Of a DNA stretch of 64,000 bases, positions 1,088 to 34,500 are shown one piece after another. This DNA is from Branchiostoma floridae (lineage: Eukaryota; Chordata; Leptocardii; Amphioxiformes; Branchiostomatidae), in NCBI RefSeq assembly GCF_000003815.2, contig NC_049997.1:6225204-6289203 (forward strand), in the 5' to 3' direction. Below the pieces are notes generated by a model that saw only the letters and a list, made by a program, of their open reading frames with translations, ran no database searches and was not told the origin of the DNA. The stretch's first letter is position 1; each line of letters opens with the position of its first letter. Position numbers and translations under genes: made by a program.

Positions 1088-4000
1088 AGCCTCAGGCCAG
1101 GACACCGGGGAACCCTAAGGTGCTCCAGACGGGTACCAGGAAGCCGCACCCGTCTTACGTACCTGAACACCTGCCTGCCTTCCCCGACCCGCACACCTAC
1201 ATCAGAACACCTGTAAGTACGTCTGAACAGCTTTCCTGACCCTCACACTATCAGAACACCTGTAAGTACCTAAATACCTACATCAGAACATCTGTAAGTA
1301 CCTGAACACCTGCCTGCCTTCCCCGAACCACACACCTACATCAGAACACCTGTAAGTATGTCTGAACAGCTTTCCTGACCCTCACACTATCAGAACACCT
1401 GTAAGTACCTAAATACCTACATCAGAACATCTGTAAGTACCTGAGCACCTGCCTGCCTTCCCCGAACCACACACCTACATCAGAACACCTGTAAGTTTTG
1501 GATTGATGTCATGGTTATTGGGTTGGCCAACTACTCTCTCTTTGCAGTCAGGGGTTGAATTGTGAGGGGCTTATAATTAAATTGTACATGTATACGCGAT
1601 ACTTAGTGAGTGATCTCAGAGAGTGACAGCCATTGGAGTATTAACTTAATAATTAAGTAATAAATCACTGGCACCGTGAAGGACCCCATTTCTTTTCAAA
1701 TAAGTGTGATGGATTCTTTAAAAAAGTGATGCTCCAGCTGTGGCTCTTCTCGAACACTGCTACCTGAGGGATGTCTTTAATAACAAAGCTAGATACCCAT
1801 TTTTACCTGAGTTAAGTGAGGAAAGTCATGTAACACACAATGCCAAGTAGCATCCAAATATAACATTTTACTTTTGGTAATGCATTGTACACAATACTTC
1901 ATGTATTGTTTGTTACTTGTGTTATTTATACCTTCCTTACCACATGTTAGTTTGAGACTTTTTAAACGTTGCCGTACATTTGTATATTCTTTTTTTTTCA
2001 GACCTTCCGGCCTCCAGCGAGTGATTATCAGGTGATTAGAGAAACGGCAGCGTCCCAGAGAAGAGACATCGAGCGGGCGCTGACCAGGTTCATCGCTAAA
2101 ACTGGCGATACTCAGAGCCTCTTTAAAGATGACAAGAACTCCTTCCCACGTCAGTATCTTTTTATGTGTGTGTCTTTGTGTGTGTATATGTATGTGTGTG
2201 TGTGGTGTGTGTATTTGTGTGTGTGTGTGTTTGTGTCCGTGAGTTTTTGTGTGTGTGTATGTGGTGTGTGCATGTGTGTGTGTCTTTGTGTGTGTATATG
2301 TATGTGTGTGTGTGGTGTGTGTATTTGTGTGTGTGTGTTTGCATGCATATTATCACCTGCTTTGTACATGTCATCCCTAGCCTGCTGGGTGCAGACTTGG
2401 ACCACATTGTTTTGTTTGTTGTTGTTTCCATAGTGATAGCACCTGCCCACCCTGTATACATGCAGTCCCTCCTGGGTGCAGACATGGACCATATTGTTTA
2501 TTGTTTGTTTGTTTGTTTGTTTCCTGTTACCATAGTGATAGCACCAGGCCCCCTGTCCGCCCCATACATGCAGTCCCTGCTGGGTGCAGACATGGACCAT
2601 ATTGTTTATTGTTTGTTTGTTGTTGTTGTTACCATAGTGATAGCACCGCACCCCCTGCCCGCCCCGTATATGCAGTCCCTCCTGGGTGCAGACATGGACC
2701 ATATTGTTTATTGTTTGTTTGTTTGTTTGTTTCCTGTTACCATAGTGATAGCACCAGGCCCCCTGTCCGCCCCATACATGCAGTCCCTCCTGGGTGCAGA
2801 CATGGATCATATTGTTTATTGTTTGTTTGTTTGTTTCCTGTTTCCATAGTGATAGCTCCGCACCCCCTGCCCGCCCCGTACATGTTATCCCTGTTTGGTG
2901 CAGACATGGACCATATTGTTTATTGTTTGTTGTTGTTACCATAGTGATAGCACCACGCCCCCTGCCCGCCCCGTACATGTTATCCCTGTTTGGTGCAGAC
3001 ATGGACCATATTGTTTATTATTTGTTTGTTGTTCCCATGGTGATAGCACCGCACCCCCTGCCCGCCCCATACATGCAGTCCCTCCTGGGTGCAGACATGG
3101 ACCATATTGTTTATTGTTTGTTTGTTTCCTGTTCCCATGGTGATAGCACCACGCCCTCTCCCCGCCCCGTACATGCAGTCCCTCCTTGGTGCAGACACGG
3201 ACCTTATTGTTTGTTTGTTTATTGTTTCCATAGTGATAGCACCACGCCCCCTGCCCGCCCCATACATGCAGTCCCTGCTGGGTGCAGACATGGACCATAT
3301 TGTTTATTGTTTGTTTGTTTGTTGTTGTTTCCATAGTGATAGCACCACGCCGCCTGCCCGCCCCGTACATGCTATCCCTACTGGGTGCAGACATGGACCT
3401 TATTGTTTGTTAGTTTGTTTGTTTGCTGTTTCCATAGTGATAGCACCATCACCACTGCCCGCCCCGTACATGCTGTCCCTGCTGGGTGCAGACAAGGACC
3501 ATATTGTTTATTGTTTGTTTGTTTGCTGTTTCCATAGTGATAGCACCATCACCACTGCCCGCCCCATACATGCAGTCCCTGCTGGGTGCAGACATGGACC
3601 TTATTGTTTGTTTGTTTATTGTTTCCATAGTGATAGCACCACGCCCCCTGCCCGCCCCATACATGCTATCCCTACTGGGTGCAGACATGGACCTTATTGT
3701 TTGTTAGTTTGTTTGTTTGCTGTTTCCATAGTGATAGCACCATCACCACTGCCCGCCCCGTACATGCTGTCCCTGCTGGGTGCAGACAAGGACCATATTG
3801 TTTATTGTTTGTTTGTTTGCTGTTTCCATAGTGATAGCACCATCACCACTGCCCGCCCCATACGTGCAGTCCCTGCTAGGTGCAGACATGGATCATAGTG
3901 TTTATTGTTTGGTTGTTTGTTTGTTGTTACCATAGTGATAGCACCATCACCACTGCCCGCCCCATACGTGCAGTCCCTCCTGGGTGCAGACATGGACATT

Positions 4001-5344
4001 ACAGACGAGACGAGTGATGAGGAAGCCATGGACACAACCAGCACCTCCCAACACCAGGTATGGCTGCACTTCCATACTGTAAACCTTGTAAAGATAAGGA
4101 AAAAATAATGTTGTGTTTCCCGCTTCAGTCCTGGAAAAATTAGGGTTGGTAGGTCATGTAGGGATTATCTTTTAATCTTGTATTTTTTTTTAGGCTGGCC
4201 AAAACTCCAATGTGACATATTACTGTAAAATACAGTTGAACAAAGTAAACTGAAATGCATGAGGACACTTGTCTTTCAATGTCAAACTTTAAATTTGTGC
4301 ATAATAGATAGGACAAGCTGTGTTGTTACCTCTAGTCAATAGAAAGCAGGCTGAATACAAATTCTAAGTGAAAGTACTGCCCACCCAAAAAAAGGCTAGG
4401 GTCACAAGGTATTTCTAGTGTAGGTAGGACAACGGGTAACAACATATTTCCTCCCAACACCAGGCTTGGTGGCTGTGTTGTGTGTAGGTATATATTGCAC
4501 ATGTAGTGCTGAATAGCTGTATTTGTACATAGCAATGTTTGACACGTCTATTAGCCCGGGTAAGTGAAAATGCCAATCGGGCAAGCGCATGTCCTACCCC
4601 ACTTGCCCTATCAGAAAATCAGCACTATTTTGATTTGTTAACCTCTCAAAAGCGTGGGTTCCTTGCATAAAATATCTGAAATAACTAAATAACTGACAGT
4701 GTTTATTCATCTTTCTGTCATCATTGAAGACAACAGGTTATAATTACTTTGTCTAATTAAGCAAAGTGGCATTGCAGTACTAATTGCAAAAAAAGGAGTT
4801 TGCTTCGTCTCAAGTAAAACACTTTGAGTTCTGACTGCTTTACCTTTTTTGCTAACATCAGGGCTCAAAATACTTTTTTCTGCATTACCTGCACCAGACA
4901 AATTTTACCTGCACCACTCTGAATTTACTAAAATTATTCAGGAACCATTGCTATTTTTTTCTTTTATACTTTATAGGTGGTAACAGTCAATGCAGCTAAT
5001 AACAATCCACATACACATATATCATAGGACCTTTATGTATAAAACCCAGTACATGGATCAGTACAGGTTAGGTATAGGTCGACACCAACTTTACCTTCAC
5101 TAGCCTGCATATGCAGGACACCAGGTGGTATTTCATTGAAACTTTGTGTATGTTTCAGACCGCTCCCTCCCAGACAGCAGGGACCAGGGAAAGTAAAGAC
5201 ACTCTAGGGGAGGGGAGGGGACAAGACTCCTCACAAGATTTGTCTCAAGACCAGAGGAACCGAGATTCCGACTCCATCATCGATAATCCGTTCTTACAGC
5301 CGGCGAGGAAACCACCGTTCCGCAGAAAACTTTCAGCAAAGTAA
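1088..5344 (+). CDS. TAF8: TFIID subunit 8 (TAF8), last four coding exons; 5' part lies outside the window
   Basis: Exons join at 1088-1212, 2002-2149, 3936-4057 and 5159-5344, with a TAA stop at 5342-5344. Junctions are GT-AG and phases agree (0, then 1, then 0). About 192 residues are visible. TAF8 is a histone-fold subunit of the TFIID general transcription factor and works in the nucleus; the histone fold itself is upstream of this window. What is seen here is the family's C-terminal half: the proline-rich PAFPDPHTYIRTP segment, then SDYQVIRETAASQRRDIERA and TRFIAKTGDTQSLFKDD, then an acidic DETSDEEA stretch, and a C-terminal IIDNPFLQPARKPPFRRK basic tail matching the TAF8 nuclear-localisation tail. 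All of this lines up with vertebrate TAF8 as I know it. Oddities: the exon ending at 1212 and the exon starting at 3936 both have their splice-site edge amplified into minisatellites in the flanking introns. Intron 4058-5158 holds nothing else convincing beyond a hAT-like end near 4859. Confidence 0.93.
1162..1500 (+). repeat. Exon-edge minisatellite: TAF8 exon end plus splice donor, about 3 copies of 139 bp
   Basis: The last 51 bases of the exon ending at 1212 plus its GTAAGT donor are repeated with a 139-bp period, starting at 1162, 1301 and 1440. Each unit also contains shorter internal copies of the word CAGAACACCTGTAAGTA, so seven donor-like sites lie in a row. The first copy is the real exon edge; the others are intronic. 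Confidence 0.85.
2160..2345. repeat. TG-rich microsatellite just after a TAF8 donor
   Basis: Imperfect (TG)n with TATG and TTTG interruptions. It directly precedes the acceptor-edge minisatellite. The long frames across it are low-complexity artefacts. Confidence 0.9.
2346..3990 (+). repeat. Exon-edge minisatellite: splice acceptor plus start of a TAF8 exon, 17 copies of about 100 bp
   Basis: Each unit contains a TTGTTTGTT-rich tract, an acceptor (CCATAG or CCATGG), then the first 60 or so bases of the exon that truly begins at 3936, ending at GGTGCAGACATGGA. I count 17 copies, with GGTGCAGAC words spaced 85-108 bp apart from 2389 to 3986. Only the last copy runs on into the rest of the exon. 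Units differ by point changes and by the number of GTTT words. Several reading frames stay open over many units, because the exon-derived part is open, and should not be taken as genes. Confidence 0.92.
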
Positions 5345-5710
5345 CGTTAACACGCAATATATAAAATTCTTCTGCAGAAAACTTTCAGCGAAGAAACGTT
5401 AAGACAGTCACATAAAATTTCTGTGAAAAACAGGTATTTTTTCCCTCAATTCAATGGTCATATTTTGTTTTCTATCTGTAAATATCTGTTTATAGCAGTA
5501 ATGTAATGCTCATATAAAGACGAGGGAGGTGACTATATTTTTTTCTCAATTTGAGGTCAAATTAATATTTTTGGGGCTGAATATGTAGTTAGAGTGTTTT
5601 TATTTGGCAAAGTATTTGGGCTCCATTTTGCAGAAAACTCTCAGTTAAGTACGAAGTAACACACAGGACAAGAGAAATATTTTGTGAACATTTATTACTA
5701 TGTAAATTCA

Positions 5711-6131
5711 AAACCACACCAATTTGATTTCTTTGCTGTCAGATCTTTAAAAAATAATTGGCCATCAACATGACAATACAGTCTGGGGGTAGTCTGTGTC
5801 TTAGTTCACACAGTTTCAGGGAGTCAGATGTAACGCTAGTTCACCTTTATCTGTGGCGTAAACCTTTATCCGTTGTCTTTATAAACAGCACAATTAGGAG
5901 TGTTAAGTCCGCTGACAGTGGTTTCAAATTTGCAATATTTTCAAAGTGTTCCGATTTTAAACCACCGTCTGTGGACTTTATATCCCTTTTTTTGTACAAA
6001 CAACGAATATAGGTTACCCTCGGATAAAGGTGAACCAGCGTTAAGTTTCCTCCCAGCCCTCTGTTTTCATGATGTCTGGTTGGTAGAATTTCACATAAAA
6101 GAAAACCAACCATTTAAATTGGTGTGGCTTT
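5711..6131. mobile_element. Degenerate Harbinger-like element split by a nested foldback MITE
   Basis: The left end at about 5711 (ACCACACCAATTTGATTTC) is the inverted counterpart of the right end near 6110-6131 (AAATTGGTGTGGCTTTA). These ends match the terminal repeats of the better preserved element at 6513-6873. A separate foldback MITE sits inside it at 5831-6043. Confidence 0.5.
5831..6043. mobile_element. Foldback MITE, family 1, copy 1
   Basis: Begins TAACGCTAGTTCACCTTTAT and ends with the inverted ATAAAGGTGAACCAGCGTTA. The interior is also an inverted repeat centred on GTTTCAAA...TTTAAACC, so almost the whole 213 bp can fold on itself. Related copies are at 16330-16553, 17109-17330 and 54032-54252. 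Noncoding. Confidence 0.8.
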
Positions 6132-6512
6132 AGGGTGGTTTTCTTTTAGAATACAGTGAGATTTGCATTTGTTTGTAAAATATTTTCTGAAAATGTTACT
6201 TTTCATCGTTGTATTGCTAGTTGTGGAAACGACTGAAAAATATTGTATTTTTTCTACCATACAAGACTGGTATATACACTGTGTGAGATAGATATAAATA
6301 CATATCTTTTCCAATGTAAAACATGTCATTAATACATTTTTACAAGTACGACTTTATCATCATGAGAAGTGCATACAAAAGTATCACAAACACACATATT
6401 TTCCAAAGTTGTTAAACTATGATTCATACATGTGATACAACATTACGCAAAGTGCATTAAACTTTGTTCCTAAACTTAAGCTTCAGTTTGCCAGGTTTGC
6501 ATTGATTCCTAA

Positions 6513-6873
6513 GGCCACACCAATTTAATTTCTTGGTTCACGGATTTTTTCATAAAAAATATGGAGCGAAAGGGCGAAATAAAAATAAAAATTGTAAAAT
6601 GGTTGGGGTAAAGGTAACGGCTAATCCAAAACATAAAGAAAAAAAGTTTTCAGCTTGAAAAAAGTACAGAAACACTATTTTTGTACAGTAACAGCAACTG
6701 TACCCACACTTTAAGGAGCTTATAATATAAAGGCCAATTTGCTACACCAGAAAGTTGGTGAATGGTTTCATTAATGGTAAAAATTTGCTGAGTGGTAATT
6801 TTTATTTTTATTTTTTTTTCCAAAAAATGGGAGCGAGCGAATCCGTGAACCAAGAAATTAAATCGGTGTGGCC
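6513..6873. mobile_element. PIF/Harbinger-like MITE with TAA target duplication
   Basis: Long terminal inverted repeats of more than 30 bp begin GGCCACACCAATTTAATTTC and are flanked on both sides by TAA (6510-6512 and 6874-6876). A three-base TWA duplication is the mark of PIF/Harbinger elements. No transposase frame is present. Confidence 0.75.
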
Positions 6874-7160
6874 TAACGTCACATTTCCAAACTGGGGCCA
6901 GGACGGGCTGTTTGTGGAAACAAAAAATAGAAACGTATGCGTAGAAATATACACAAATAATGCCAACGGCTATTCTCTTTAGGTCTTTAGTAGATTGGTC
7001 TTTTTACACTTTTCTTTTCCAAAAGCTGCTCGGCCGACCCTGGTGTGGAAATTTAATCTCCAAGCAGATCCTGCGGTGCCATAAGATAGTATCAAAGCTG
7101 GCCAAGGAGTGTAGCCGGCTAAGGGAGTCAAACGGGCACCGGAGAAGTTTGATACATATA

Positions 7161-7253
7161 GAATACAACAGTGTATTCCGTCTCACCCGAGGTACCAGCC
7201 CGACCGCGGGTCGGATCGCCCGACGGCCGATGCGTAATACACCGTGTTGTATT
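7161..7253. mobile_element. Small palindromic MITE (GAATACAACA ends), copy 1
   Basis: GAATACAACAGTGTATTC at the left and TACACCGTGTTGTATT at the right are inverted copies. The middle is GC-rich with GATCGCCCGA words. A fuller copy lies at 55840-55978 and a single end at 47382-47400. The DNA that follows is similar in all three places. Confidence 0.65.
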
Positions 7254-7900
7254 TTATTTATGTCAAACCCGTTTTGATGCGAAAAGCGCCAGAAGTTGAA
7301 CAAATTTGGTGCCCTCGAACAAAAAGTGTTGCAACAGTAAGTGAAACTTCCAACGTCTAAATCAGGTATTCGAACTCTCGATGGCACCGCACTCGGCCTG
7401 CTCGAAACAGTTTGATTTATTCAAATGGAGCCCGTGTGATACGCCTTTTGAACCTGTGCGATACGGAAGTTATGGCACGGTCCGGAACACCTGTATCGAA
7501 CGTTTTCGCATCACAGGTATGACATAAAGTAGATTATTATGCAACAGTAATTAAAACAAACTGTGCATTCTGATTCAATACACATCCTTATTGCAATGTA
7601 CTCCAGAGGATTTCTTGTATGATCATAATAAAATCAAAGCTAATATTCCTTTTGTATTTCAGTCTTTTCTTTGACAAAATATAGTCATCCTTCAGTGTAT
7701 TATAATTCATTTTTTCTGTACACTATACATACAACAGTGCTTGTAAAAATTCAAAATCTTTTTCAAAACATTTGTATAAAACTGTGAAATCTGCAGGGAA
7801 GAGCAAGTATCTAAAATTTCTCTTGTTCATAAAGCCTGCCACAGCTGATTGCTGCATCGAATTGTTTAATACACTCTTACAACAGCCAAAAAGGGCTGTC

Positions 7901-8059
7901 AAGGTGGAAAATATACCTTTCTGGAATATACATAATCTTTTTTTTTTTACAATTTTCGTCCTCTTTTAGAGTATTGCAAAAAGGTGGAAAATATACCTTT
8001 CTGGAATATACATAATCTTTTTTTTTACAATTTTTGTCCTCTTTTAGAGTATTGCAAAA
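7901..8059. repeat. Direct tandem duplication, 80 bp x 2
   Basis: AAGGTGGAAAATATACCTTT begins at 7901 and again at 7981, and the two units are almost identical apart from poly-T length. Noncoding, in the region between TAF8 and the dioxygenase gene. Confidence 0.85.
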
Positions 8060-8289
8060 GGGCTCCATGTACATCAGGTGATCCCTAAAAGCCAGGCAGT
8101 GATCGTGGACTGTTAGTGGAGTCCAAAAAGGTATTTTAGAACTCAGACATGCAGGGTCGAGATATTTTCCTGTGATGCTGCCTTTTTGTAGCCTGGGTAC
8201 CGTCTGGGTAGAAGTTTGCTCCCATGTTTGCTTCTGCTACCCGTCTGGGGAACTGCACATTCAAACCTTTTGGTGTTGACGTCAGTTAA

Positions 8290-8422
8290 TGAGCAAATTA
8301 AGGAACGGGTTCTAGAGCGCTTGTGTGATGACAACAGGCCCTCTCGCAAGTGGAAGGAGGGCATTTCAGGTGTTGGAACACCTGTTAGAATAAGCGCTTG
8401 AACCCATTCCTTAATTTGCTCG
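8290..8422. mobile_element. Foldback MITE, 133 bp
   Basis: TGAGCAAATTAAGGAACGGG near 8290 pairs with CCCATTCCTTAATTTGCTCG ending near 8422. The inner part (AGCGCTT) is also inverted. No coding content. Confidence 0.7.
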
Positions 8423-9009: not shown

Positions 9010-9038
9010 GAAGATACCAGAAGATGAAGAGGAGGAAG

Positions 9039-9501: not shown

Positions 9502-9532
<31 letters not shown>

Positions 9533-12500
9533 TGTGTGTGTGTGTGTGTGTGTGTGTGTGTCAGTGTGTGTATGTGTGTGTATGCATTGTGTGTGTGAGT
9601 GAGAGAGAGAGAGAGAGAATGTTATCTTGCCTTAACAAATTTCCTTACCAGGTTTAGGAATGACAGGCACTTTCTCCTTGATCTTGTCCCCAGTGGCAAA
9701 CATGGGTGAGATGAAGTTTGTGGCACCTCCGGTACTGCCCTGCAAGAAAGGAGAGTACAAATTTATCAAGATTGCAATGTTGCAAGTAAACTTAATTTCA
9801 CGGTTCATGTCTTTTCTATGGGAACTCTCTGTATGTCTTTCATAGCATGAGTGTTTATCAATGGACAAGTAAGGTTTCAACCAACATTACATGAGTCCAT
9901 TGAGCATTTACTCATGCCACTCTAGATTATGGCTAAGTGGTGACCGCGTAGCGCAGTGGGACCGTGTTCGCCCCGTGACCGAGAGGTTGCGGGTTCGAAT
10001 CCGCCTACCGTGTTACCGATCTTGTGCCCTTGGGAAAGGCACTTTACACGACTTTCCTCACTTTACTCAGGTGAAAATGAGTACCTAGCTTCGGCTCACG
10101 GTGATTAACATCATTCACCCGGACGGGAGACCTGGTGCATATGAAAGGGTGTGTCATCCTGTAAGGGGCGGTATAACCCTGTCGTGCGCAAACATGTGCG
10201 AACATGTGCGATCACGTCGACCGATGATGTATGTTCGTCTGTATCTCTGTGGATCTGCCGCTACCAGCCCAAAGCTGCCTAGGTAGATCCGTGTAATGAG
10301 TTGTATCATTGGCAAATAAGTAAAATAAAATAAAATAAATAAGTAGCTATATGACTTAAGCATATAGTATTATACATATACATTACATATATTTGAAAAT
10401 ATGGAGACACACAAGAAAACAAAACATAACAACATGCCAAAAATAAAACCTCCATTTACATGTACCTTCTTTTGCAGACTTCTAGCAACACCTATTTTGC
10501 AGGAATGCTGACTTGTGATTTTTAACATGGACTCAGGTTCTCTGACGTTGGGACAGTTCTGCCCTTGCCAGAACTCCTTTCCCATCATTACAGATGCTTA
10601 GTCCATGTTGAAAATCACAAATCAGCACTGCTAGAAGTCTGCAATGCAGGCTACACTACATAGAAGTAAAACGTTACAGACTACAGACTAAAGTACTATA
10701 TGATAATTCTCTACTCACCTCGTTTAAGTACAGCATGAGCGTGAGGTAGCTCCTGTACTCAGAACTATACTCACCTCGTTTAAGTACAGCATGAGTGTGA
10801 GGTAGCTCCTGTACTCAGAACTGTACTCACCTCGTTTAAGTACAGCATGAGTGTGAGGTAGCTCCTGTACTCAGAACTGTACTCACCTCGTTTAAGTACA
10901 GCATGAGTGTGAGGTAGCTCCTGTACTCAGAACTGTACTCACCTCGTTTAAGTACAGCATGAGTGTGAGGTAGCTCCTGTACTCAGAACTGTACTCACCT
11001 CGTTTAAGTACAGCATGAGTGTGAGGTAGCTCCTGTACTCAGAACTGTACTCACCTCGTTTAAGTACAGCATGAGTGTGAGGTAGCTCCTGTACTCAGAA
11101 CTGTACTCACCTCGTTTAAGTACAGCATGAGTGTGAGGTAGCTCCTGTACTCAGAACTGTACTCACCTCGTTTAAGTACAGCATGAGTGTGAGGTAGCTC
11201 CGGTACTCAGAACTGTACTCACCTCGTTTAAGTACAGCATGAGTGTTAGGTAGCTCCTGTACTCAGAACTGTACTCACCTCGTTTAAGTACAGCATGAGT
11301 GTGAGGTAGCTCCTGTACTAAGGATAAGGGAGAAATTCTTTGTACACAACCAGTGGGTACTTACATAGCTTACGTTTCGATGTCTCTCAGACACCTTCGT
11401 CAGAGCTTCTAACTGGAGTTCTGCTTCTCACCGCTATATGTAGCCGATGTAGGTGGCGCTTTTGCGGTGAGAAAACAATCCCAAACGTGGCTTAGTTTGT
11501 ATCCCCCTTCGTCCCGGTTCATCACTGGGGTTGACTTTCTTATCCAGATGGCCTCCTTAATCCACCGTGCCCGCCTATTGTCTTCCCTGTCTATGACCTT
11601 CGCCCCCTCCCAGTCAATTACGCAATTGTTCCTGGCGATATGGTCTGTAACTGCCGACTTCTTTTCTTCTTTGAGCGCAAGTCTTTTCTGTGATCTTGTG
11701 TATCTTGTGGCATCTATGTTGTTGGCTTCTTTCTTGTGTTCTTCTAACCTCGTCCCAAAAGTCCTTCCTGTTTCACCAATATACACCTGATCACAGCTCT
11801 GGCACGGGATTCTGTACACACAGTCTGTTTTGGCTAAGTCCTCCTGTTTGTCCTTAGGATGCACTAACAGACTTCTCAGTGTTGTTTTGGGTTTGACTGC
11901 AGTGGCTATCCCGTGTTTCCGAAATACCCTTTCCAAAGGTTCCGTGACTCCTTTGACGTAAGGGATGATCACCATACCTTTCGACTTTTCCTGTTGTTTA
12001 GTGCTCAGTTCTTTCTGTTTAGGTCTCTTCTTCTGTTGTTCCACTTTGTTGAAGGCCCATTGAGGGTAGCCACAGCGTGTGAGGGCTCTCTTGACATGTT
12101 GTGTTTCCTGTTCTTTGTCCTGGTCTTCAGTGGTGACGGTGTTGCATCGGTCCAACAGGGTACGGATTACTCCTAACTTTTGGTGCAGAGGGTGGTGGGA
12201 CTGGAAGTTAAGGTATTGGTCTGTGTGCGTACTCTTCCTGTACACCAAAAGTTTCACTGTGCCATCCTCCTTATGCACTAGAAGGGTGTCAAGGAAAGGT
12301 AGTGTGCCTTCCTTCTCCTCTTCATACGTAAACTGTATGTTGCCGGTGGGGTCGATGCTGTTAAGGTGGTCTGTGAGCTCTTGCTGGGCTCCTGTACTAA
12401 GGTCAGACAGTATACTCACCTCGTTTAAGTACAGCATGAGTGTGAGGTAGCTCCTGTACTCAGAACTGTACTCACCTCGTTTAAGTACAGCATGAGTGTG

Positions 12501-15500
12501 AGGTAGCTCCTGTACTCAGAACTGTACTCACCTCGTTTAAGTACAGCATGAGCGTGAGGTAGCTCCTGTACTCAGAAATGTACTCACCTCGTTTAAGTAC
12601 AGCATGAGCGTGAGGTAGCTCCTTTCCCCGTTTTCCCGGCGGTAACTCCCGTCCATGTGTGGATGGAAGTAGTTACCTGGACCGTACTTCAGAAATCTCA
12701 GTCTGTGTGACACAAAACACATGATTGTAATAAAACTATGTGTCTTATATCTTAAAAATATATCAATACCACTTCTCTTTTCATATGCCCAAGGAGCTTT
12801 TATGAGAAGGAAAGAGAACAAAATCATTTATGATAAAAGCTCCTTGATGTGCCTGAAAATAGGTTGCAACTTTTTTCAAGGCCAAGATTTTTTAAATTTT
12901 GATACAGTTTGGGCAAAAATGGTCAAATAATAGATTAGATGGAGGAAAAACAAAAGAGAAAGTAGAGGACAATATTTGCAATGCAGTGCATACAACACAT
13001 GTATGCATGTAATATTACATGGCTTAACAACAGAATAGAGCAAATAGAAAGTTATACATGTACATACTTTCAACAAGAGGCTTTTCAACACTGACTGATT
13101 CTGATCTGAATTTATTTTATCAATTACATGAAAACAAAAAGCTTTACCTCTCGTTGAGCCCCAGCACCTTCCTCCTGGCCCATCTACGAGGCACGTACTG
13201 TTTGATTCTCTCCCAGATCTGCTCTGCTCTCTCCGTGGAGTCCATGATGCATCGCTCACTGTTCCTATAGTCTGTGGCCAGGATCTGTCTACAAGGGGAA
13301 AATGTGAGATAATTTTCAGAAGCAAGGAAAAGTAGCTTTCAAAAAATACATTCTGTATTCAGGGCCCAAAATACTTTTTTCAGCCAGGTTGTCCATGTGG
13401 CAACCTGAGTCAAAAGCCGGGGCTGAGGTTGCGCCATCAGCATTTCAGGTTGCCCCACTTTCAAATTGTTACTTTCTTCAAATCAGCTACTTATCCATTA
13501 TCTTTTCTTCCAGCTATATGTAACTAATTGTACTATGTTTTATGTTATCAAAAAAATGGATACAAAAGCTTATGCATGTTAAGGTGGGGAAAAAGCTGCG
13601 AGTGTTCCAACAGCAAAATTTCAGGTTGCTCAGTGTGCAATCTGGGTTTAAAATCAAGTTGCGCAAAGCAAAATGTGGTTGCATTTTCAAGTGGGCAAGT
13701 GGGTATTTCGAGCCCTAGTACTGTATATTTCTAAAAGGCTATTCATCCATCTATTCATTTCATTGTTATTTGTACAAATTAACCCTAGGCGGAGTCAAGA
13801 TGACGTGTGGACCTGCTCTTGCCTTGGGCTTAAACTGCTAAATGTTGGTGGAAAGTCAATGAATAACTTTAATACAGTTAACAAATGACAAAGTTTAAAA
13901 AAAAATGAGAAAATGTTTTCTCTGTTTTGAGGTTTGAAGAGACTGTCTATTGTTGGGGCGAAAAATCACTGTCTCCAAGTGTCTTAAGTATCAGGTACAT
14001 GTGACAAACTCCAAGAGCTAAAGGAAGCTTGCAGGATGCAGAAAAAAGGTGAAGAAAGACTGAATGCAGCTATAGGACTTTCCAAAGACTATCACAGGAC
14101 TTTCAAACTTGTCACATATGTAGCTGAGAAAGAGAATGCCCAATCCATATTGATTATGCAAATGATGACCTCATTTACATAATCAATGAGTAAACATGAA
14201 CTTGTTGACAGATTATGATTTTTGGTATGAAGATAGCCTAAGTGAAGACTTACATAGTGGGATGCTTATTATGCAAATCAACAGCAAATTTACATAATTA
14301 ATGAGGAAAGTTTACAAATCCAAGTGGCATTCCACGATAGGACTTTCAAAGTTGTCACCTATGTAACTGACAAAGGTAACTGAGAAAAGCAGCATAACTT
14401 TAAATTTTGACATCTCGTGTTCTGGACATGCTGTGGTCATGATTTTTGAGTGGTAGATAGCATTGAGGTCTTCTGATGAGAGAAGTGTCTTGAGCTCAGT
14501 CAAGTCAGTGAAAGGGGCTTCAAGTTCAAGATTAGAATACAGTGACTGATGATGATGGCACAAGTACCTTCCTCCTCCAACATTGAGCATGGCAACTTCA
14601 TATCCTTGGTCTTCTGTCTGCCGAATCAGCTCTTCACATTCCTGAAAAAAATACAAAAAAATCATCCTGGCTAAAAGTCTGGTTTCCAAGATAGATATTA
14701 ACTTACTCTCTAAGGTACTCTGATGACCTACACAGTGCCATTCTCCTATACAGAGGGACCACAGTCGTGTCAAAACGGCTTGTGTTACCTCTGCTTTCTT
14801 GTGCAATCAGACCAGTTAGGGAGCGCCCTACTTATAAATATTAATGAGCTTGCCCTTATATGGGCAGTCAGCCGTTGGGGATCGGGCGTAGGCATGGTGA
14901 GCAAACAAAGCCATGGTAATACGTAACATGATTGGCTGATAGCTTCCCAGGGGCCTTTGCGAGACAGCTTGCGACAACAACAAGCCCAAGAAAGCCCTAT
15001 TCTCTGATTGGTTGACAGCTTGTTTGTAGCGACAATCATAATAGCCACTAATAGGGCATGGGATAGCAGGGCCCCATAAGGTAATGCCGTTGGGGACCGG
15101 GTGTTAGGAGGATGCACAGTGCCAGCCCTTAAGACAGAGGCTGCTAGCTTAGCTGCCATCAAGCCTTTACATTTGAATACACAGTGAGTGTGTGAGTGTG
15201 AGAGTGAGAGAATTGATGAGTGAGTCAGGGTGAATGAGTGAGTGGGTGAATGAGTGAATGAGCAAGCAAGTAAGTGCATGCGTGAGTAGTGAGTGAGTGA
15301 GTAATTATATATAACGTTGTGTATAAAATATTGTATGTATTCTTCATAGAAAGACTGGAGAGTGTACAGAGGCGAGGAACCAAGTTTATCCTCAACAATT
15401 ACCAAACTTACTACACGTACAAAGACAGGCTGCTCAGTTGCTCACTTTTACCCTTGTCATATAGACGTGAAATTTTAGATTTAGTTTTCATTTTCAAATG

Positions 15501-19163: not shown

Positions 19164-22100
19164 ATGGAAAACCAAGGATTCACCATGACTGAAAACCATG
19201 TGAACACAGAGAGCACGGGCGCAGAAGTTACACAACAACAGACGCAAACACAGGTTGATATGATAATGAACCACCAAAATCATGTCGTGGAGGGACAGAC
19301 TATGGAGCAAACACAGCGTCAGGAGGTAAACGGCTTTGTTTTGCTATTGTAAATACGTTTGATTTTGCGTTTTGAGAGTATAACAACAATGATAATCTTT
19401 ATTGCGTGTTCATGCCCGTAGGTTAAATGTACGGAGGACCGCGTGTGGTCTGACGACTGAAAAGGGAAACTAAATTTATACAGTAACTCAGTTGCAGTAA
19501 CTATAGACTAAACTGGATCGAAAATCAAATTCAACACTTTGTACTTCTATGAAACATACTATTGGCTACATCTAATATTTTCTCCTCTTTTTTTGAAACA
19601 AGTGGAGACATACGTAATTACATAAGTATTTTGTTTGTTATATGGTCATTCGTGCATGACACCAAGTACTTAAGCGCGTCCTGCTTGGACATTTTCTGAT
19701 TACAATTCTTGTCTATTTGGTGTTCGTTTTCATATTAGGTACAACCACTCTCGTATCTAGCGCCGCGAAGAAGCCATAGGTTTTAGATTATGAGCTTTGC
19801 CACCTCAATGTAGATGAAATAAACAGACGTACTTTTGTTTTGGGTTGGTCTCAATAACCTAAAATAAGTTTTATGTGCGCGTCATTATCTGCGTTTCTAC
19901 CCTAGTACTCGTATACAGCTACCAGATTTTTTTTTTCTAAATCATGTTCGTAGGGCCTGATGTTACCATCATGGTGATGAAGAGCGGCCCATAGCGATAA
20001 CAGTAGCAGCATCTCTTCTCCCTAAGTCAGAAACATCAAGCTTAGGCAAGCTTGACTTCACTGACTCAATAGGCGAAGCAGGGGTTACGAGGCTGCTCGG
20101 GAAATTCCCTACCCCATTTTGGCCGGAATGGTTTGATCCGCCACATCGCACCATCGCACATGTGGCGGGTTCTTTTACGTGCCCGGGGTGTGGCTCTCCC
20201 CAAACACGGGACCTCCATTTAACGTCCTATCCGAGGGACGACTCATTTTCACTTGAGTAAAGTGAGGAAAGTCGTGTAAAGTGCCTTTCCCAAGGGCACA
20301 AGACCGGCAACACGGCAGGCGGATTCGAACCGGCGACCTCTCGGTCACGGGCCGAATACACTACCACTGTGCTACACGGCCCCACTAAGATAGAGCCTAA
20401 ACAAGATGCAAGTGCCATTTATGCCGTAAAACGTTGCCACAATGGTAAGGTTATGTTACAAAGCTTTACAATGCACCTGATTTGGCGGAAGGGGAGTTAT
20501 TTCTTGGAAGGCAGTTTTGCACGAAATGACGGTTTGGCCCTCTCCCAGCATGCTTCACGCAGAAGTACTCTTTTTGGTCAAGGCAACGGGAAAACGATCC
20601 AAGGGACCACTCAAAAGTCACTACAGTGTCCAAATGGCCCGTATTCAGAAGTTTTTCATTGGTATGGGAGCATTAAGTACGTCTGTGCACAGATAAACAA
20701 AGAATTCTCTTTTGATTATTTTATTTCTTACTTTGACTTAGGAGCGTTTATGGACACTGCTTTTGTAGACGCCTTGGATTTTATGTTCTCTTGAACCTTG
20801 ACCGTGGACATCAGGGATGTCATCACGGGTCACAATGGATGTTGTCCACTGGTGACTCCACTTTGACTGAATGTCTTGTTTTGTTTACATGTATGGTTGG
20901 GCCTCATTGAAGCCAACTTCAAAAGTTGAAGGGGCTACCACCCGTCTTAAGATAAATAAACACATGAATGTCGTCTTTATTCCCAATAGATTCCTGGCCA
21001 ACAGCAGCAACCGGGGCATAAACGTAGGATGTTCAACAACCTGCGGTCCATGATGAAGGGTCCGAGCGTCACCAGGAGCGGACTGGACAAGAACAACTTC
21101 ACACAGAAGAAGACCATGGCGCAAGGCTTCATGGACATGGCGCTGATAACGGCCAATGTCGCTCAACTCAAACTCGTCATGTATGAGGTCAGTCGTGTAA
21201 GGTCATTGTCGGAGGTTAGAAATCTATTCTATTCGGAGAATAGAATTCTTTTCTATTCGGATAATAGAAATCTGTTCCATCCGAAGAACAGAGGTTTGTT
21301 CTATTCGGAGAATCGAATTCTTTTCTATTCGGATGATAGAAATCTGTTCTATTCAAAGAATAGAGATTTGTTCTATTCGAAGAATAGAGTTCTAGATCTT
21401 TTCGAACAATTGAACTCATTTTGGAACGTCAAATTCATTTCACTGAGAGCTGCCTAACTTTATAAGCGTGACCTTTCTTAGGTCTTTGAGTGGCCAATGA
21501 TTACAAATTCTATTCTCTTCGTTTTTTTTTTTTTTTCAGGGCGAGAATGGCCGAGTGGTGTGGTACGAGTTTGTGGTGTTCCTGTTGGTGTGTTCCATCC
21601 TGGTACAGATCCTGGTGGGAATTCTGCTGTTCATCAAGTCTCGATACAGTATCGAGGACCCGGAGCACCATAAACACGCAGAGATGTGGGTACTATTCGT
21701 GAAGAAGCTAAACAATCTGAAAATGCGTATATTCTTAGATTTGTACGGTACTATCGTAATCTCTAGGTCACAGTAACTAGATTCATCGCTCTAACTTACG
21801 CCTGGGTTGAGAAAAAAATGTTTTGTTCTTGTTCAGAGATACTAGTCTAAGTCTACATGACGAGAAAGCATCGAAACGGCTAACGTTATGGCTAACGTTA
21901 TCTCGCTAGTCATGACTGTAGTTGTAGAAGTGACACAAGAAACGTAACCATGACTGCAGTTGCCAACTTGGTAAGTAATACCAGTCTACCACACTAGCTA
22001 ACTATGTAGTGTCACACAACCACAATAATTTACTTCTTGAATGCAGGAATGAGTTCCTAGTTGGCTGCGATACCACGACGGTTACTCTTATATGCTACAA

Positions 22101-22330
22101 AGTTATTACGTAGATGATAAATAAAACGATCTTGCTGTTTGTGTCGTCCTCACAGGGCAAACAACTGGGCTACAGGGTTGGTGATGATCGTCACCGTCCT
22201 CAACGTGTTCATTTCGGCCTTCGTCATTGTGGATGCTGGCCCAGGCACACCGCAAAGTACTCAGGCGCCTACAACACTTACACGGGCAGCTACAACCCCC
22301 ATGCAGGCCCCTATAACTCCAACACCATAG
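19164..22330 (+). CDS. NINJ-like: Ninjurin family protein A (two-pass membrane protein)
   Basis: Four exons: 19164-19325, 20990-21187, 21540-21685 and 22156-22330 (TAG). GT-AG borders, phases 0/0/2, 226 residues. Exon 1 encodes a polar Gln/Thr-rich N-terminus (EVTQQQTQTQ). Exon 2 holds the ninjurin amphipathic region [19 protein letters not shown] then AQLKLVMYE, which aligns with alpha1/alpha2 of human NINJ1 and keeps Lys44-Lys45, Asp53, Ala59 and the QLK motif. Exon 3 gives the first membrane helix (FVVFLLVCSILVQILVGILL) and a charged loop; exon 4 the second helix ([20 protein letters not shown]). Family members oligomerise in the plasma membrane and act in adhesion and membrane rupture; which role applies here is unknown. 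The tail is Thr/Pro/Ala-rich and, unlike B, C and D, lacks the final Cys-x-Cys exon. The reading frame of exon 2 stays open into intron 2 through a 24-bp repeat. Confidence 0.93.
19950..20388 (-). mobile_element. tRNA-derived SINE in ninjurin A intron 1
   Basis: On the minus strand a tRNA-like head (GTGTAGCACAGTGG A box, GGTTCGAATCC B box) is followed by CCCTTGGGAAAGGCACTTTA, as in the copy at 9938-10345, and a longer tail with GGAGGTCCCGTGTTTGGGG and GATCCGCCACATCGC. It is inserted opposite to the host gene. Not a functional tRNA gene. Confidence 0.8.
21216..21395 (+). repeat. 24-bp minisatellite in ninjurin A intron 2
   Basis: About seven imperfect units of the type CTATTCGGAGAATAGAATTC plus TTTT, each partly palindromic, start 28 bp after the exon 2 donor. 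The period is a multiple of three and the frame in phase with exon 2 has no stop across the array. Shorter GAATAGAATTC repeats occur at the same intron position in gene C. Confidence 0.85.
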
Positions 22331-22439
22331 ACTCTAATAGTCCATGGGCCAGGTCACCAACATTGGCCATTTGGTATTAAACAGGGGGTGGGGGGGGGGT
22401 GTTCTATCTGCATAACGTGACGTCACAGAACATCATTAC

Positions 22440-23045: not shown

Positions 23046-23099
23046 AAACCACAACCTACAACGAAGGAGACGTTATAGAGGCGATGTTATAATAAATGT

Positions 23100-27165: not shown

Positions 27166-27225
27166 CAGGGGAGGGTGATTTTAAATTGTTCTTGTTTCCT
27201 TTTTACATCCATTTAATATAAACAA

Positions 27226-27940
27226 TAGAGTCCATTCCAAGACACCATGCGGATGTTTGTGGCCATTGTTTAGAATTGATTTTAAAGTTTTGTAATTATA
27301 TGTCTAGGACATTTGATACTTCAGAAATATTTGTAACACTGTTTCAACTTTATAAATATTTACCTGGTCCTGTAAAACTTTGGAAATATTCATCGTGTGG
27401 AATCGGATACTTCTAATGGTTTCTAAATAATGATAACAGCATTCTACCATTATTTACCATTTTCTACCATTTTCTACCATTTTTTGTAAATGGTTCAGTG
27501 GGCTGGGAAGATAGCAATTCACACATCCTTGCAAAGTATGGTTGGGTGCCATGCAACAATGGCCCACCACAAAGGATCCACCAGTGCCCAGCAGTGAAAT
27601 CTAAATATATACAGATACAACAATGGGGCTTACTTTTATGGGGGCAATAAACTAATTTAACCATTTGGCGAGGTTTACCATTTTTTCTGAATATTTGTAA
27701 ACATCAAATAATCACACAGAGGTTTCACAATTATTCTAAATAAAGATATTTTTGTACAGTTACTTTCAAAATGTTTCTAAAATATTCAAAGGAATTCAAA
27801 TATATGAGTACTTTCTCAGTCAATTTTTTTAAAATGATTTAATTATTGTGGCTCAGATATTCTTTTATTCAAAATAATTCAGACTAATTTTATTCAAAAT
27901 ATCGCCTAAAAACCCTCATGGTGTCTTGGAATGGACTCTA
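27226..27940. mobile_element. DNA element with perfect 24-bp inverted ends and TA borders (mariner-like)
   Basis: TAGAGTCCATTCCAAGACAC at 27226 is the exact inverse of the sequence ending at 27940, over 24 bp. If the outermost TA is the target duplication this fits Tc1/mariner. The 715-bp interior is AT-rich, with ACCATTTTCT tandem words at 27445-27482, and has no transposase frame. Confidence 0.7.
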
Positions 27941-28189
27941 GTTTCAGCACATTCCAATAACTAGAAAAAAAACGTGTACACACGCAAACCTTGGCAAAAT
28001 GCCAGCTTTTTTAAAGCACTTGTTTTAAATATTTGAAACAAACAAGCAAATATATGATAACTCAATTTTATGATCAATCATATACTTGCAATTAGTTTGC
28101 ATTCGCGAGCGTCTTTGGTTTGATCTTTAATGTCTGACGAGAAAATCAATATACAGATCAGTTTCTAGTTTTCAGTCTACAATCATCGG

Positions 28190-28551
28190 ACACCTGTTCG
28201 TGTCTTCGGGCTTTTCCGGGCTCTGTGACGTCATCTTCGGGCTCGTTCGATTGTCTCAAAAGAGTGGTCGGACAAGTAGCTTGGCTGCCGGAACACAAAC
28301 AAAGGGGGAGGTTTTTCCAGGTCACTTCACAAAGGGTGGGATTCCCAGGGAGCTTTAGGTCTATGAATATTCACACCGGAGAAACTGGGAACTGAAAACA
28401 AAAGGGGACGTCGCTTGTTATTGTGTCTTTCTTGGCAAGCTTGGAGGATTCTTCTTCTAGCAGTGACGTCTGAGGGCTAGCATCTTTAAGAAAGTGGGAA
28501 GACACCACAGGTGTGTCTTGTCTCGTCAGAAGGGGAGATCAAGTTGCAAGC
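28190..28551 (+). promoter_or_regulatory. Proximal flank and 5' UTR of ninjurin B (paralogous to that of A)
   Basis: Blocks such as GGGAACTGAAAACAAA, GTCGCTTGTTATTGTGTC and GACACCACAGGTGTGTCTTG match the 19030-19160 region in front of gene A, up to the start codon region. The two leaders are clearly homologous, so the duplication included the promoter side. Confidence 0.6.
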
Positions 28552-31500
28552 ATGGCCGATTCTAACCAGGTGAAAGCGGACAGCACAGGTGTGGAAATGA
28601 CCCAGCAACAGGCGCACACGCAGGTGAACATCAACAACCTGAATGTGGAGGAGGGGCAAACCACGGACCAGGCACAGAACCAGCCGGTAAACAACTTCCT
28701 TTTTCCGAAAATAGTTTCATCAAGTTGGTAGAATATGGGATATAGGAGAATTATTTCTACACAACCACCTACATCGGCTACATATAGCGCTGAGAAGCAG
28801 AACTCCAGTTAGAAGCTCTGACGAAGGTGTCTGAGAGACATCGAAACGTAAGAAATGTAAGTACCTGCTGGTTGTGTAAAAAGAATTCTCCTATATCCAT
28901 GACGCTTTTTTGTCATTACTGCTAAAATTATTTCGTTGTCATTTGGATACGGTATTTCTAACCTCCATTAAAGATAGACCCTGGGCAAGGACGTTATATA
29001 GAACGTCTTTGCCCTGAGGTATTGTTTTGGGTGTATGTCTGTGTGTATTTCCGGATATTTGTGCCCAGCATAATTCAAGAACCTCAGGCTGAATTGTAAT
29101 GCTGTCTGGTATGTGGGTAGGTCTTCGTTGACTTGATTCTAAGTAACAGAAGTATGCCACCATCTGAGATTTGATATACACGTCAGGAAGAAATCGTCTG
29201 CTCATTGAGCACTTGACAAGCTTTTATACGGAATTCGGCTTCCCAAAGTCGTCTGAACTCATCAGAATTGAATATGGGCTGGACTCAGACCTATCAGATT
29301 AAGAAGTAACGTCCTTGGATTCAGTAATGTTGAAATTGACTTTCATGTCCTGATATTTGTATTATTTTCTGTGATATAAAACATGTCAACATTATCAAAT
29401 GGCGTTACGCTCAATTCTACAATACAAACGGGAAAGTGGTTATATATACATCATTTTAATCTTTCAATTGGGTCAAATCCACTTGAATAATCAGACCGTC
29501 TCATTGGATCAAATTGATATATTTGCTATGAATTTCGACATAGAATAATTAATGCAAAAGAGATATAGGATCTAAACCAAAGCACTAAGATGGTACAAAA
29601 TGGTCAGCTCTTGGACAGCAGCTTCATTGTACAAATCTTTTGTAGTCTTACCGATATCTGTATGGGGGGGGGGGGGGTATCATAATTAGTGTGTAAAACA
29701 AATTACCCCAAATTAGTGCGACCAATTTGCAATAGGGCTTGTCTGTTACCGAAGGTAAATAGTCGGTCCCTTGGGAGTGTTTTGAAAAAGAGACAGACGG
29801 AAGTGTCTCTATGGAATATTCTGATATGTCGTATTTAACAACATCGCAATATCAATATTTTCAACGTAGAATATCTTAAAGTTTGTAGTTTAGATGATAC
29901 TCGCTTCAAGAAACTTGTAAATTCTCTAGAGAAAGACAAAACTGTCCGTTCCAAATCGCACGTACACCACTCACCGTGACACAACACGGAACTTTAACTG
30001 AGTGATTTTTCACGCCCCAGGCTGAAAAAACGACGACAGCTGACGCAAGCAAATCAATTACTTGCTGGCTAACTATGGACACGTTTCGTTTCCCTAGAAT
30101 TCCTGGCTTTATCTATTTATTCATTCATTCGATAGCTCGTTCATTCATTCATTCGATAGCTCGTTCATTCATTCATTCGATAGCTCGTTCATTCATTCAT
30201 TCATTCATTCATTCTCTCGTTCATTTCTTATCCTAGAATAGTTAACGCTAGAAATATATCTTCCAAGCAAGAAATCTGTATATCATGATGGCACAATGCG
30301 GGACTTTAAGCGAATTTGCAGGCCCCTTGATAGGTGTACTGAGGTGGCGTTAAATTATTAGTGATGTGTTCTGGATTGTGGTCAAAACTGTGGCATGTGG
30401 GTTGGCAACTTTCGTCACCTTTGTAACTGAAAAAAAGAAGCTAAAGTCCTCCCCGCACGTAATGGTGCAGTCGGTCGGCACCCATCTCTGTATCTGGGAT
30501 TGTACGTACATAGCTTTCTGCAATCACCGTTAGGCGTCTGGGGAACTAGACTACGGTGCAATCAGGCGGCGCCCATCTCCGTTACTGTGATAGTACGTAG
30601 CTTCATGCCATCACAGGCGGCTAACCCACTTGTAGTGGTATGTGTTAAGGTAACATACTCTTTACAAATACCGAGTGCTAAGCAGGTATAACAGCATGTA
30701 CCATGACCATGTTAAAGTCGGCCGGGAATCGAGTTCACGACCATTTGTCGGGGACGAAACATCCATGTGACGGGGACGACACATCCAAAACGGGGACGAA
30801 AGGACTAGGGGACGAAAGATCTAGGGGACGAAAAGACCTGATACCTCGACGGCAAGGTGAACATTCTACCCACCTGACCAATTATCACCGGTTCTAAACT
30901 ACCCCTCTAATGTTTACAGGATGGAACAGACTACATCTGTCCATGCTGAATCAACAAAACCCACACTCAAAGGGCCTCATTAATTCAACAGCCCTGTTAA
31001 TACTGTTTACTTTACCTACCGCAAAGAAAGAACATACTCGTATGCATGAGAGGCACACCCTGCGTCGTCGGTGCCTTATGGTTTTGAGCTATAAGTATGT
31101 ATATATGCTATTATACAAGATGTTCAGCTTGGTTGTCAAAGGGAAAACCGTCAACAAGGGTCTTACTATCCTGTCTGTCACAGGGCAGGTGAATTTTGTT
31201 CGATGAATTATAAAATGGCCCAAATTCACTATCGCAAACTCACTAGATCTATGCAATGACTCTTATGTTATATTTAAATATAACGATAGCTAAATTCGTT
31301 GGGACAGTCAATTATTACGACGCTAGAGCTGCGTTTATCTCTCATTTGTTCTGCGTTGTTGCAAAAGTGTAGTAAAGCGTGTCCGTTCTACATGATACAT
31401 ATTTGTCTCTCTGTGAACATACACGCATCACACGTACAGCGGCTTTGCTTACAAAATACTAGAAACTTGATGAGATAATTTCCGTTCCCCTGAGCACGTT

Positions 31501-34500
31501 TGCTGTAATTGGAATGCGCAAACATTTTGAGAGCCAATGAGAATGTCACAGGACTTCAAGAGTCCGGTGGGGTTTCCTGTTGAATTTGTTTATGAACCGG
31601 GAGTGTTTATTTGCGTGGTTGTGCTCAGTCAGTTTGCCTGTGTGGTTGTAGCCAGCCTGAAATCATTTTCAGCCCCCTCGATTTTGAATGGAAATCCTAT
31701 CGAGCACCGAAGGCATGGTGTGACGTTGCGCGTCATTTCTAGGGGATCTGAGTCCCAGAAAATTTTGAAACCTAGACTCTCTGAAACACTATTTCCTGCA
31801 TTTTGAGGTGCAAATTTGGCTTGTAGACTAAGCTGTTCAATGGCATCTGTTTTGGTGAAGAAGAACACATGGGTTTCATTTTTTTTATATCTTTATTTTT
31901 TTTTATATCTTTACATATCAGTTTTTGTCTGTCCCTGGGGACGGAATGGGGAAAACTTTTTTTTCAGTCCCCAGCGGCAAAATTCCTTCAAAGGACTGAA
32001 GGACAGGTGCTGGCTACAACCCTACATACACCATTTATGCACGGGTGACCATTGCGTTTGCGGACCACAAAGATATTGCCATGTCGATTTGATCATGTGG
32101 CTGACATCCGCGAGCATCAATTTCATCCGTTTCCAAAAGAAAAACTTTGCCCACACTGTAAATCGTAGAAAGCAGCTGTAAATGAGTACATGTAAGCCTT
32201 AATTTGAAAACACACACTCTCACACCAACACACACAACAAAAACACACACGCGCACACATACACACAAATGTACACATACACAAACACATAGACACACAT
32301 GCAGACAGAGACACACACACACACACACACTCACACATACAAATGTACATACAAACAAACAAACTCACGAACTGATCACAATGACTCCATTCCAAAGAGT
32401 GCGTGAAAAAATTAACGTTGTGCATTGCTTCCTTAACTACAGCTTGTACAACAAGTGCAAATACAAGGGAAGTCCAAGTTCGTGTTCTTCAAGAGAATGC
32501 CGGCCGGCCCGCCCAAAGTCCGACCCCCTCTGGGGATGAACGCTTACGCCCAGAAGAAAACCATGGCGCAAGGCTTCATGGACATGGCGCTTCTCACGGC
32601 GAACGCTGCTCAGATGAAACTCGTCATGGTCGAGGTAAGATTGTGCTGAAGCGTTCCTGTGTGTGCCAGAGAGAGAGAATGAGAGGAAGAGAGAGAGAGA
32701 GAGGGAAAGAAAGTTTGTGTGTGTGCGAGAGAGAGAGAGAGAGATAGGAACAGAGAGAGAGAGAAAATGAGGGAGAGAGAGTGAGAATGAGCGTTTGTGC
32801 ATGTGTCAGTTGGTGAGTTTGTTTGTATGTGTATGTGTGTGTGTGTTTATGTTTCTGTGAGTGTGTGTGTTTGTGTGTGTGTGTGTGTGTGTCTCTCTCT
32901 CTCTCTCTCTCTCTGTCTGCGTGTGTGTGTGTGCATCTCTGTGTGTGTGTGTTTGCCCTCAAATGTGTGTGTGTGTGCTGGGGTGTATGTGGGTGAGACC
33001 GCCTGAACAAAACCGTGTCACCTTAACTCATCACGTATCCATGTTTTCACCTTGCTGTAGGGTCACGACGGGCGGATCCCATTCTTTGACTTCATCATGG
33101 CGCTGCTGGGACTGTCCATCGCTTTCCAGATCGTGGTCGGCGCGCTCCTACTGTACAAGAGTCAGTACAACATCGAACAGCACAACGAACAGCACAGGGC
33201 CGACAGGTAGGTACAACAATGCGCTGTTACTGTACAAGTTTCAGTACAACAACGAACAGCACAACGAACAGCACAGGGCCGACAGGTAGGTACAGCAATG
33301 CGCTTTTACTGCACAGGTTTCAGTACAACATCGAACAGCACAACGTACAGCACAGGGCCGACATGTAGGTGGACAAATGTTGCGCTGTTACTGTACAAGT
33401 CTCAGTACAACATCGAACAGCACAACGAACAGCACAAGGCAGACAGGTAGGTACATCAATGCACTTTTACTATGCAAGTCTTAGTACAACATAGAACAGC
33501 ATGCCGAACAACACAGGGCCGACAGCAATGCGCCCTTACTGCATAGGGCCGACAGTTAGGTACAGCAATGCGCTGTTACGGTACACGTATCAATACAACA
33601 TAGAACAGCACAACGAACAGCACAGGGCCGATAGGTAGGTACAGCAATGCGCTGTTACTGTACAAGTTTCAGTACAACATAGAACAGCACAACGAACAGC
33701 ACAGGGCCGACAGGTAGGTACAGCAATGCGCTTTTACTATGCAAGTCTCAGTTCAATATAGACCAGCATGCCGAACAACACAGGGCCGACAGCAATGCGC
33801 CCTTACTGCACAGGGTCGACAGGTGGGTACAGCAATGCGCTGTTACTGTACAAGTCTCAGTACAACATCGAACAACACAACGAACAACACAAGGCGGACA
33901 GGTGGGTATAACAATGCGCTTTTACTATGCAAGTCTCAGTACAACATCGAACAGCACAACGAACAGCACAGGGCCGACAGGTAGCTACAGCATTGCGCTC
34001 CTACTGTACAAGTTACAGTACATCATCGAACAGCACAACGAACAGCACAGGGCCGACAGGTAGGTACAGCAATGCGCTGTTACGGTACACGTATCAGTTG
34101 AGTACAACATCGAACAGCACAACGAACAACACAGGGCCGACAGGTAGCTACAGCATTGCGCTCCTACTGTACAAGTCTCAGTACAACATCGAACAGCACA
34201 ACGAACAACACAAGGCGGACAGGTGGGTATAGCAATGCGCTGTTACTGTACAGGTCTCAGTACAACATCGAACAGCACAACGAACAGCACAGGGCCGATA
34301 GGTAGGTACAGCAACTAGTGCGCTGTTACTGTACAGGTCTCAGTACAACATCGAACTGTTGTGGAGAAATGTTTCTAAATCTGTTGGATAGACTATTTTG
34401 TTTGGTTTTATTCCCCATTTCTTCAAACAAGCCTATGTGGTTGACCACTTATGGGGCTAATTCTTCTTGCCCTTTTCATCCTGACGAACGATCAGTTCAC

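Follow-up and report, generated by a model that had tools for sequence, protein, structure and literature searches.

A window of 64,000 nucleotides from the Branchiostoma floridae genome (NC_049997.1, positions 6,225,204 to 6,289,203; positions below are those of the window unless a locus or contig is named) contains four tandem arrays in three genes, TAF8 (donor and acceptor side), a 2OG-Fe(II) oxygenase gene and ninjurin B, and in each of them the repeat unit is an exon end together with its own splice signal. The arrays were detected by Tandem Repeats Finder (TRF) and the copies were then laid out one by one, which confirmed for all four the geometry of exon edge plus splice site that an earlier note had read from the sequence; three arrays lie on the donor side and one, in TAF8, on the acceptor side. 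The unit sequences differ between the arrays, which are spread over three genes. The four arrays are new members of the phenomenon described in amphioxus as "mirages", and an array in a P450 gene of our genomic sample is a fifth. We think it likely that these mirages are chance tandem duplications in situ, tolerated as one good edge survives, that went on to ordinary array growth. The sequence itself shows the geometry, the copy that gives the conserved protein, the intact decoys, the early stops in donor decoys and the alike interior copies of the oxygenase array, whereas the seeding, the near-neutrality and the actual choice of splice site are inferred.

Four exon-edge arrays in three genes

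The exons and arrays are as follows.

1088–1212, plus strand: TAF8 coding exon (PF10406; human TAF8 alignment) with the working donor at 1213, its 3' end being the seed of the donor array
1159–1496, plus strand: TAF8 donor-side array, seven copies of the exon end with GTAAGT (TRF, unit layout, donor scores)
2002–2149, plus strand: TAF8 middle exon, aligned to human TAF8
2381–4001, plus strand: TAF8 acceptor-side array, 16 copies of a T-rich tract, CCATAG and the first ~60 bp of the exon (TRF, layout)
3936–4057, plus strand: TAF8 working exon, the last acceptor copy, junction 3935/3936 (human TAF8 alignment)
10712–12623, minus strand: donor-side array of the oxygenase gene, in which a 56-bp unit with GAGGTGAGT occurs 15 times (TRF, layout, donor score)
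11324–12387, minus strand: insert of ~1.1 kb in the oxygenase array, with a 15-bp flanking duplication (11309–11323 and 12388–12402)
12588–12702, minus strand: oxygenase exon (PF13640), the 3' 36 bp of which are the exonic part of the repeat unit
33061–33206, plus strand: 146-bp exon of ninjurin B (PF04923), working donor at 33207 (33206/33207)
33142–34356, plus strand: donor-side array of ninjurin B with 16 junction-like copies, the spacing being mostly 79 bp (TRF, layout)

TAF8, which has a Pfam match to PF10406 (TAF8_C, E 8e-21), carries two of the arrays. On its donor side the 139-bp period given in the earlier note is present, but it is a compound of three unit versions of 49, 32 and 58 bp; the working donor at 1212/1213 scores 5.2 and the decoys 4.6–5.2, and the GT is kept in all seven copies. 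The acceptor copies are spaced 93–108 bp apart with a higher-order period of 294 bp, and the AG is kept in 14 of the 16, CCATGG replacing CCATAG in two. When the first donor and the last acceptor are used, query residues 3–112 of the protein can be aligned to human TAF8 with no gap across both array junctions, and exon 3936–4057 supplies the continuation LIAPSPLPAPY..., aligned to human LIAARPFTIPY.... The working copy is therefore predicted from the sequence to be the exon-proximal one, with the extra copies intronic. The working exon carries the ATCACCACT variant in common with four nearby decoys (3438, 3538, 3732 and 3832), so that the coding stretch may turn over together with the array; the acceptor decoys are similarly diverged in their exonic and intronic parts (mean identity 0.879 vs 0.907).

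The oxygenase gene has a Pfam match to PF13640 (2OG-FeII_Oxy_3, E 2.6e-12), and the match (residues 74–165) crosses the junction of exon 12588–12702 to exon 9649–9739. The 56-bp unit noted earlier, 36 bp of exon and 20 bp of intron start, was recovered, but the array is not continuous, since an insert separates two blocks, 10712–11319 and 12413–12623, the latter holding the working donor at 12588. All 15 copies keep the GT and score 7.8. The outer copies at 12588, 12532 and 10719 have G at a position where the twelve between have A; this may reflect homogenisation that spares the boundary copies, a pattern seen at one oxygenase base and not clear in the TAF8 acceptor and ninjurin arrays. The insert, which we take to be Penelope-like from a GIY-YIG-like motif in a minus-strand reading frame, looks truncated, and the stretch 11324–12387 gave no Pfam match. 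It is single and probably entered after the array had grown.

Four tandem ninjurin genes lie in the window, each as a partial model, the array-bearing gene B being identified by a Pfam match to PF04923 (Ninjurin, E 3e-23).

21029–22352: ninjurin A
32443–33206: ninjurin B, the sole one of the four with an edge array
44558–45476: ninjurin C
50674–51679: ninjurin D

The 146-bp exon is followed by a GT donor in all four paralogues and the array is present in B alone, which indicates that the intron is older than the array. Within the array, the GT is kept in 13 of the 16 copies, and decoys with GT score 5.2–7.4. Further 3' of ninjurin B, at 34584–41528, a 1.737-kb unit is repeated about four times head to tail at 99–99.9% identity, its period exceeding the TRF limits used.

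Most decoys keep their splice signals (14 of 14 in the oxygenase array, 12 of 15 in ninjurin B, and 13 of 15 acceptor and 6 of 6 donor decoys in TAF8), and donor decoys score like real sites, the reference donors having a median of 5.7 (n = 130). Such retention speaks for decoy arrays being selected, for example as a reserve of splice sites or to regulate how efficiently splicing proceeds, a reading that we nevertheless consider highly unlikely. First, young or homogenised copies retain signals without selection, and the oxygenase units are 98% alike by TRF. Second, signals have been lost, the GT in three ninjurin decoys and the AG in two TAF8 decoys. Third, the donor decoys that were translated yield truncated proteins, an early stop being found in 14 of 14 (6 of 6 in TAF8, with 5 of 14 oxygenase and 3 of 12 ninjurin decoys translated). 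The main unit lengths of 56 bp (oxygenase), 79 bp (ninjurin) and 49/32/58 bp (TAF8 donor) are not divisible by three, while three ninjurin spacings (30, 30 and 84) are.

Proposed seeding of the arrays and the published mirages

In the origin that we favor, each array would have begun when a segment straddling an exon edge happened to be duplicated in tandem in situ, possibly at short matches and through template slippage or error-prone end joining. The joins are in keeping with this. Where the TAF8 donor array (GTAAGT/TTTGG) and the oxygenase array (GTGAGTA/GAGAATT) end distally, they pass into intron sequence that differs from the interior joins, which is what tandem duplication in place would produce. 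The TAF8 donor join has two bases in common with the exon re-entry point (GT) and no more, and the oxygenase join holds filler with TGAGTACAG twice, both of which suit end joining or template slippage. The duplicated locus would keep one complete edge joined to the exon and have its extra copies in the intron, which would make the change nearly neutral; selection would eliminate a unit not divisible by three if it had been duplicated entirely within a coding exon. The array would then grow, shrink and homogenise as any minisatellite does, through unequal exchange, slippage and conversion, while splicing would keep to the exon-proximal copy. The earlier note's alternative of one working site kept while decoys pile up fits these observations.

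The minisatellites across amphioxus exon boundaries that the earlier note had mentioned are indeed on record. The one in Adh3 was reportedly described in Nucleic Acids Research in 2002. In the available text of two papers (PMC3087553, PMC3902484), the same structures are described as mirages in Adh3, the globins BflGb6 and BflGb9, troponin C and PGBD5, the second paper adding troponin C and the PGBD5 mirages of 60 and 108 bp; published units measure 10–160 bp and are reported not to disturb splicing. As far as that text describes them, the likenesses to our arrays are several. In all four arrays the tandem unit extends across a 5' or 3' exon boundary and includes the splice signal there. Donor sides are affected as well as acceptor sides (three and one in the window, and an acceptor in the P450 gene). 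Many but not all copies keep the AG or GT (14/16 in the TAF8 acceptor and 13/16 in the ninjurin array), although every copy does in the TAF8 donor (7/7) and oxygenase (15/15) arrays. The lineage is presumably the same. On the other hand, the genes are different, the copies reach 15–16 as against 6 and 3 units on two BflGb6 haplotypes, TAF8 has two mirages, although PGBD5 does as well, and a mobile element splits the oxygenase array. Further traits ascribed to mirages are concerted evolution within the array that exempts the boundary copies, length instability between haplotypes and in somatic tissue, and normal mRNA splicing; as to the last, the conserved TAF8 protein agrees with the exon-proximal copy being the one used. 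In the literature searched, which leaves out most subscription papers, no genome-wide count of mirages was found.

Assembly artefacts would be another source of such arrays. A single assembly was examined, in which the oxygenase unit, the only one of the four that was searched for, is located at one place, and copy numbers in assemblies can err. We regard an artefact as extremely improbable, since the copies differ among themselves, a mobile element flanked by a target-site duplication breaks up the oxygenase array, and published mirages have held up on resequencing (PGBD5) or been observed on two haplotypes (BflGb6) according to the available text of PMC3087553 and PMC3902484.

Array frequency at exon edges

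The earlier note had also proposed a mechanism acting at exon-intron junctions. Exon edges would then be preferred seeds, for example through co-transcriptional breakage or R-loops at the splice sites or through splice motifs prone to recombination, a reading that we hold to be unlikely; the mechanism was not borne out by a genomic sample chosen blind to repeats, and motif counts, although high, were not specific to working donors. The sample consisted of 20 P450 loci, chosen by Pfam match, and six grid positions, 10 kb each (260 kb). Complex arrays were those with a period of at least 25, low-complexity arrays being dropped and the two oxygenase blocks counted once. In the sample, 2 of the 23 complex arrays touched a predicted exon edge against 2.94 expected (P 0.81; ratio 0.7, 95% range 0.08–2.5), and six lay within 100 bp of an edge against 5.6 expected; this random rate counts for the neutral origin. 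The sample is small and dominated by P450 loci (152 predicted exons, 297 edges), and its exon calls are our own predictions, made by a home-made gene finder trained first on 14 P450 exon stretches and later on its own output. The gene finder missed TAF8 exons and called false exons inside arrays; before testing, false exons were removed from the window edges and three TAF8 exons were added by hand, the sample being left unedited.

A local copy was found at 4 of the 46 edges in the window and at 2–3 of the 297 in the sample, depending on the setting, one of the latter being genuine (Fisher P 0.001–0.007 for one to three). The density that the earlier note called notable therefore does exceed that of the sample, but the richness of the window was noticed after the fact. 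At the same setting, a local copy was present at 316 of 8876 non-exonic positions drawn at random from the sample, compared with 3 of 296 edges, which argues against preferred seeding at edges, although the measure counts long arrays many times and the comparison thus favors them.

The fifth mirage (L013:5523-5696) is an acceptor-side array of 1.9 copies of 92 bp, ~87% alike, at a P450 exon matching PF00067 (E 3.7e-16). Another candidate, L009:4671-4787, an exact 58-bp tandem duplication touching two predicted edges, was rejected as a mirage, the DNA being that of a frame-breaking duplication inside one P450 exon, but it is still included in the 2/23 arrays and the 2–3/297 edges. The gene finder read this duplication as a 70-bp intron; it could represent a damaged allele or an assembly error, or else be a candidate for a very young intron.

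Motif pairs were counted across the 513-Mb assembly (431 contigs). The donor motif AGGTRAGTB gave 619 pairs at 40–70 bp spacing on 26038 occurrences and its reversed control 97 on 27791, a near-equal abundance, and the acceptor motif TTTTNCAGG gave 292 on 38528 against 49 on 25523, with one locus on contig C2 supplying 52 of the 100 acceptor pairs among the matches listed. The reversed donor control may even be too high, because some of its arrays themselves carry splice-like motifs. These counts favor a junction-directed process, but taking the AGGTRAGTB counts as proof of a junction-specific mechanism is undone by two further motifs: a near-donor broken by one base, AGGTRACTB, gave 405 pairs on 20571 occurrences (reversed 116 on 24704), and a scrambled motif gave 378 (reversed 96; pairs only, with occurrences uncounted). 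Net of chance and per 1000 occurrences, the values are 23.0 for the donor (reverse 2.7), 19.1 for the near-donor (reverse 4.0) and 6.4 for the acceptor (reverse 1.2), the donor excess over the near-donor being 1.2-fold. Since the controls differ widely among themselves (96 to 405 pairs), donor enrichment is suggested but unproven. A first donor pattern, AGGTRAGTA (2560 vs 211 pairs), was dropped, being inflated by a dispersed element.

Clusters, defined as two or more matches, were counted by eye, so the densities are rough, and the single-motif listings (donor, acceptor) are lopsided by strand. Among the matches listed, there were 12 donor clusters in 54.4 Mb, 21 near-donor clusters in 173.8 Mb, 15 scrambled in 199.5 Mb and 13 reversed in 513 Mb; the donor density is 4.0 times that of the three controls pooled (49 in 886.7 Mb), with individual ratios from 1.8 to 8.7, and this too favors a junction-directed process. 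By position alone, 10 of the 21 near-donor clusters among the matches listed resemble one transposon family, leaving 11 without these. A coding-like 36-mer precedes the donor in 5 of 16 tandem donor units among the matches listed, where about one is expected, a further point for edge-directed seeding, but the 0.066 cut-off was set after the scores had been seen, short units could not be judged, and a 17th unit, from the dispersed element, was excluded.

The counts also brought up three features of the assembly (G000). The dispersed element (contigs C1 and C2) has ~51-bp internal tandem units with AGGTRAGTAAGG-like motifs and accounts for most AGGTRAGTA pairs among the matches listed. Oppositely oriented near-donor arrays lie in pairs ~10–18 kb apart (C1:20692497/20703381, C3:15666277/15675926, C4:5258409/5269431, C5:29444179/29462556), as if they were subterminal repeats of a large transposon family, judging from positions alone. 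An array of ~3.9 kb at C2:6082671-6086584 has units mostly of 64 or 69 bp, with an acceptor-like motif in each.

Several observations weigh against the favored origin, the first two being features that pure chance does not require. Per occurrence, donor pairs exceed the reversed control 6.8-fold and acceptor pairs 3.9-fold. In the window, four of the six complex arrays cover an exon edge, whereas the 260-kb sample has one verified edge array; under random placement of collapsed units, the probability of at least four in six is 7e-5 with units placed anywhere and 4e-3 within gene spans, which were set by hand, both values being flattering because the window was chosen after the arrays had been seen. 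Furthermore, the intronic parts of the units are less alike than the exonic parts in the oxygenase (0.86 vs 0.985) and ninjurin (0.66 vs 0.87) arrays, measured over stretches of 14–19 bp. At last, 6 of the 13 TAF8 acceptor decoys translated stay open across the 61 residues printed, so their exclusion from the mRNA is not forced at once.

Possible relevance to splicing and intron gain

In our view a preference for exon edges has a low probability, and motif counting alone cannot decide whether these edges are special. We also consider unlikely the broader proposition that tandem amplification is seeded preferentially at exon edges, and most of all at 5' splice sites, with mirages arising continually and supplying spare sites and new intron or exon material. 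Tandem genomic duplication is said to be the route of intron gain in a model by Rogers. The arrays resemble that model in being tandem duplications of a segment with splice signals, but the ninjurin array differs from it in that the duplication did not create an intron, the exon and its GT being present also in the array-free paralogues. With four arrays in 64 kb, one of them in a gene that has three array-free neighbors, the window is a convenient test locus. Near-identical splice sites beside a working one amount to a natural experiment on spliceosome choice among them, and such structures have been proposed as a source of new introns.

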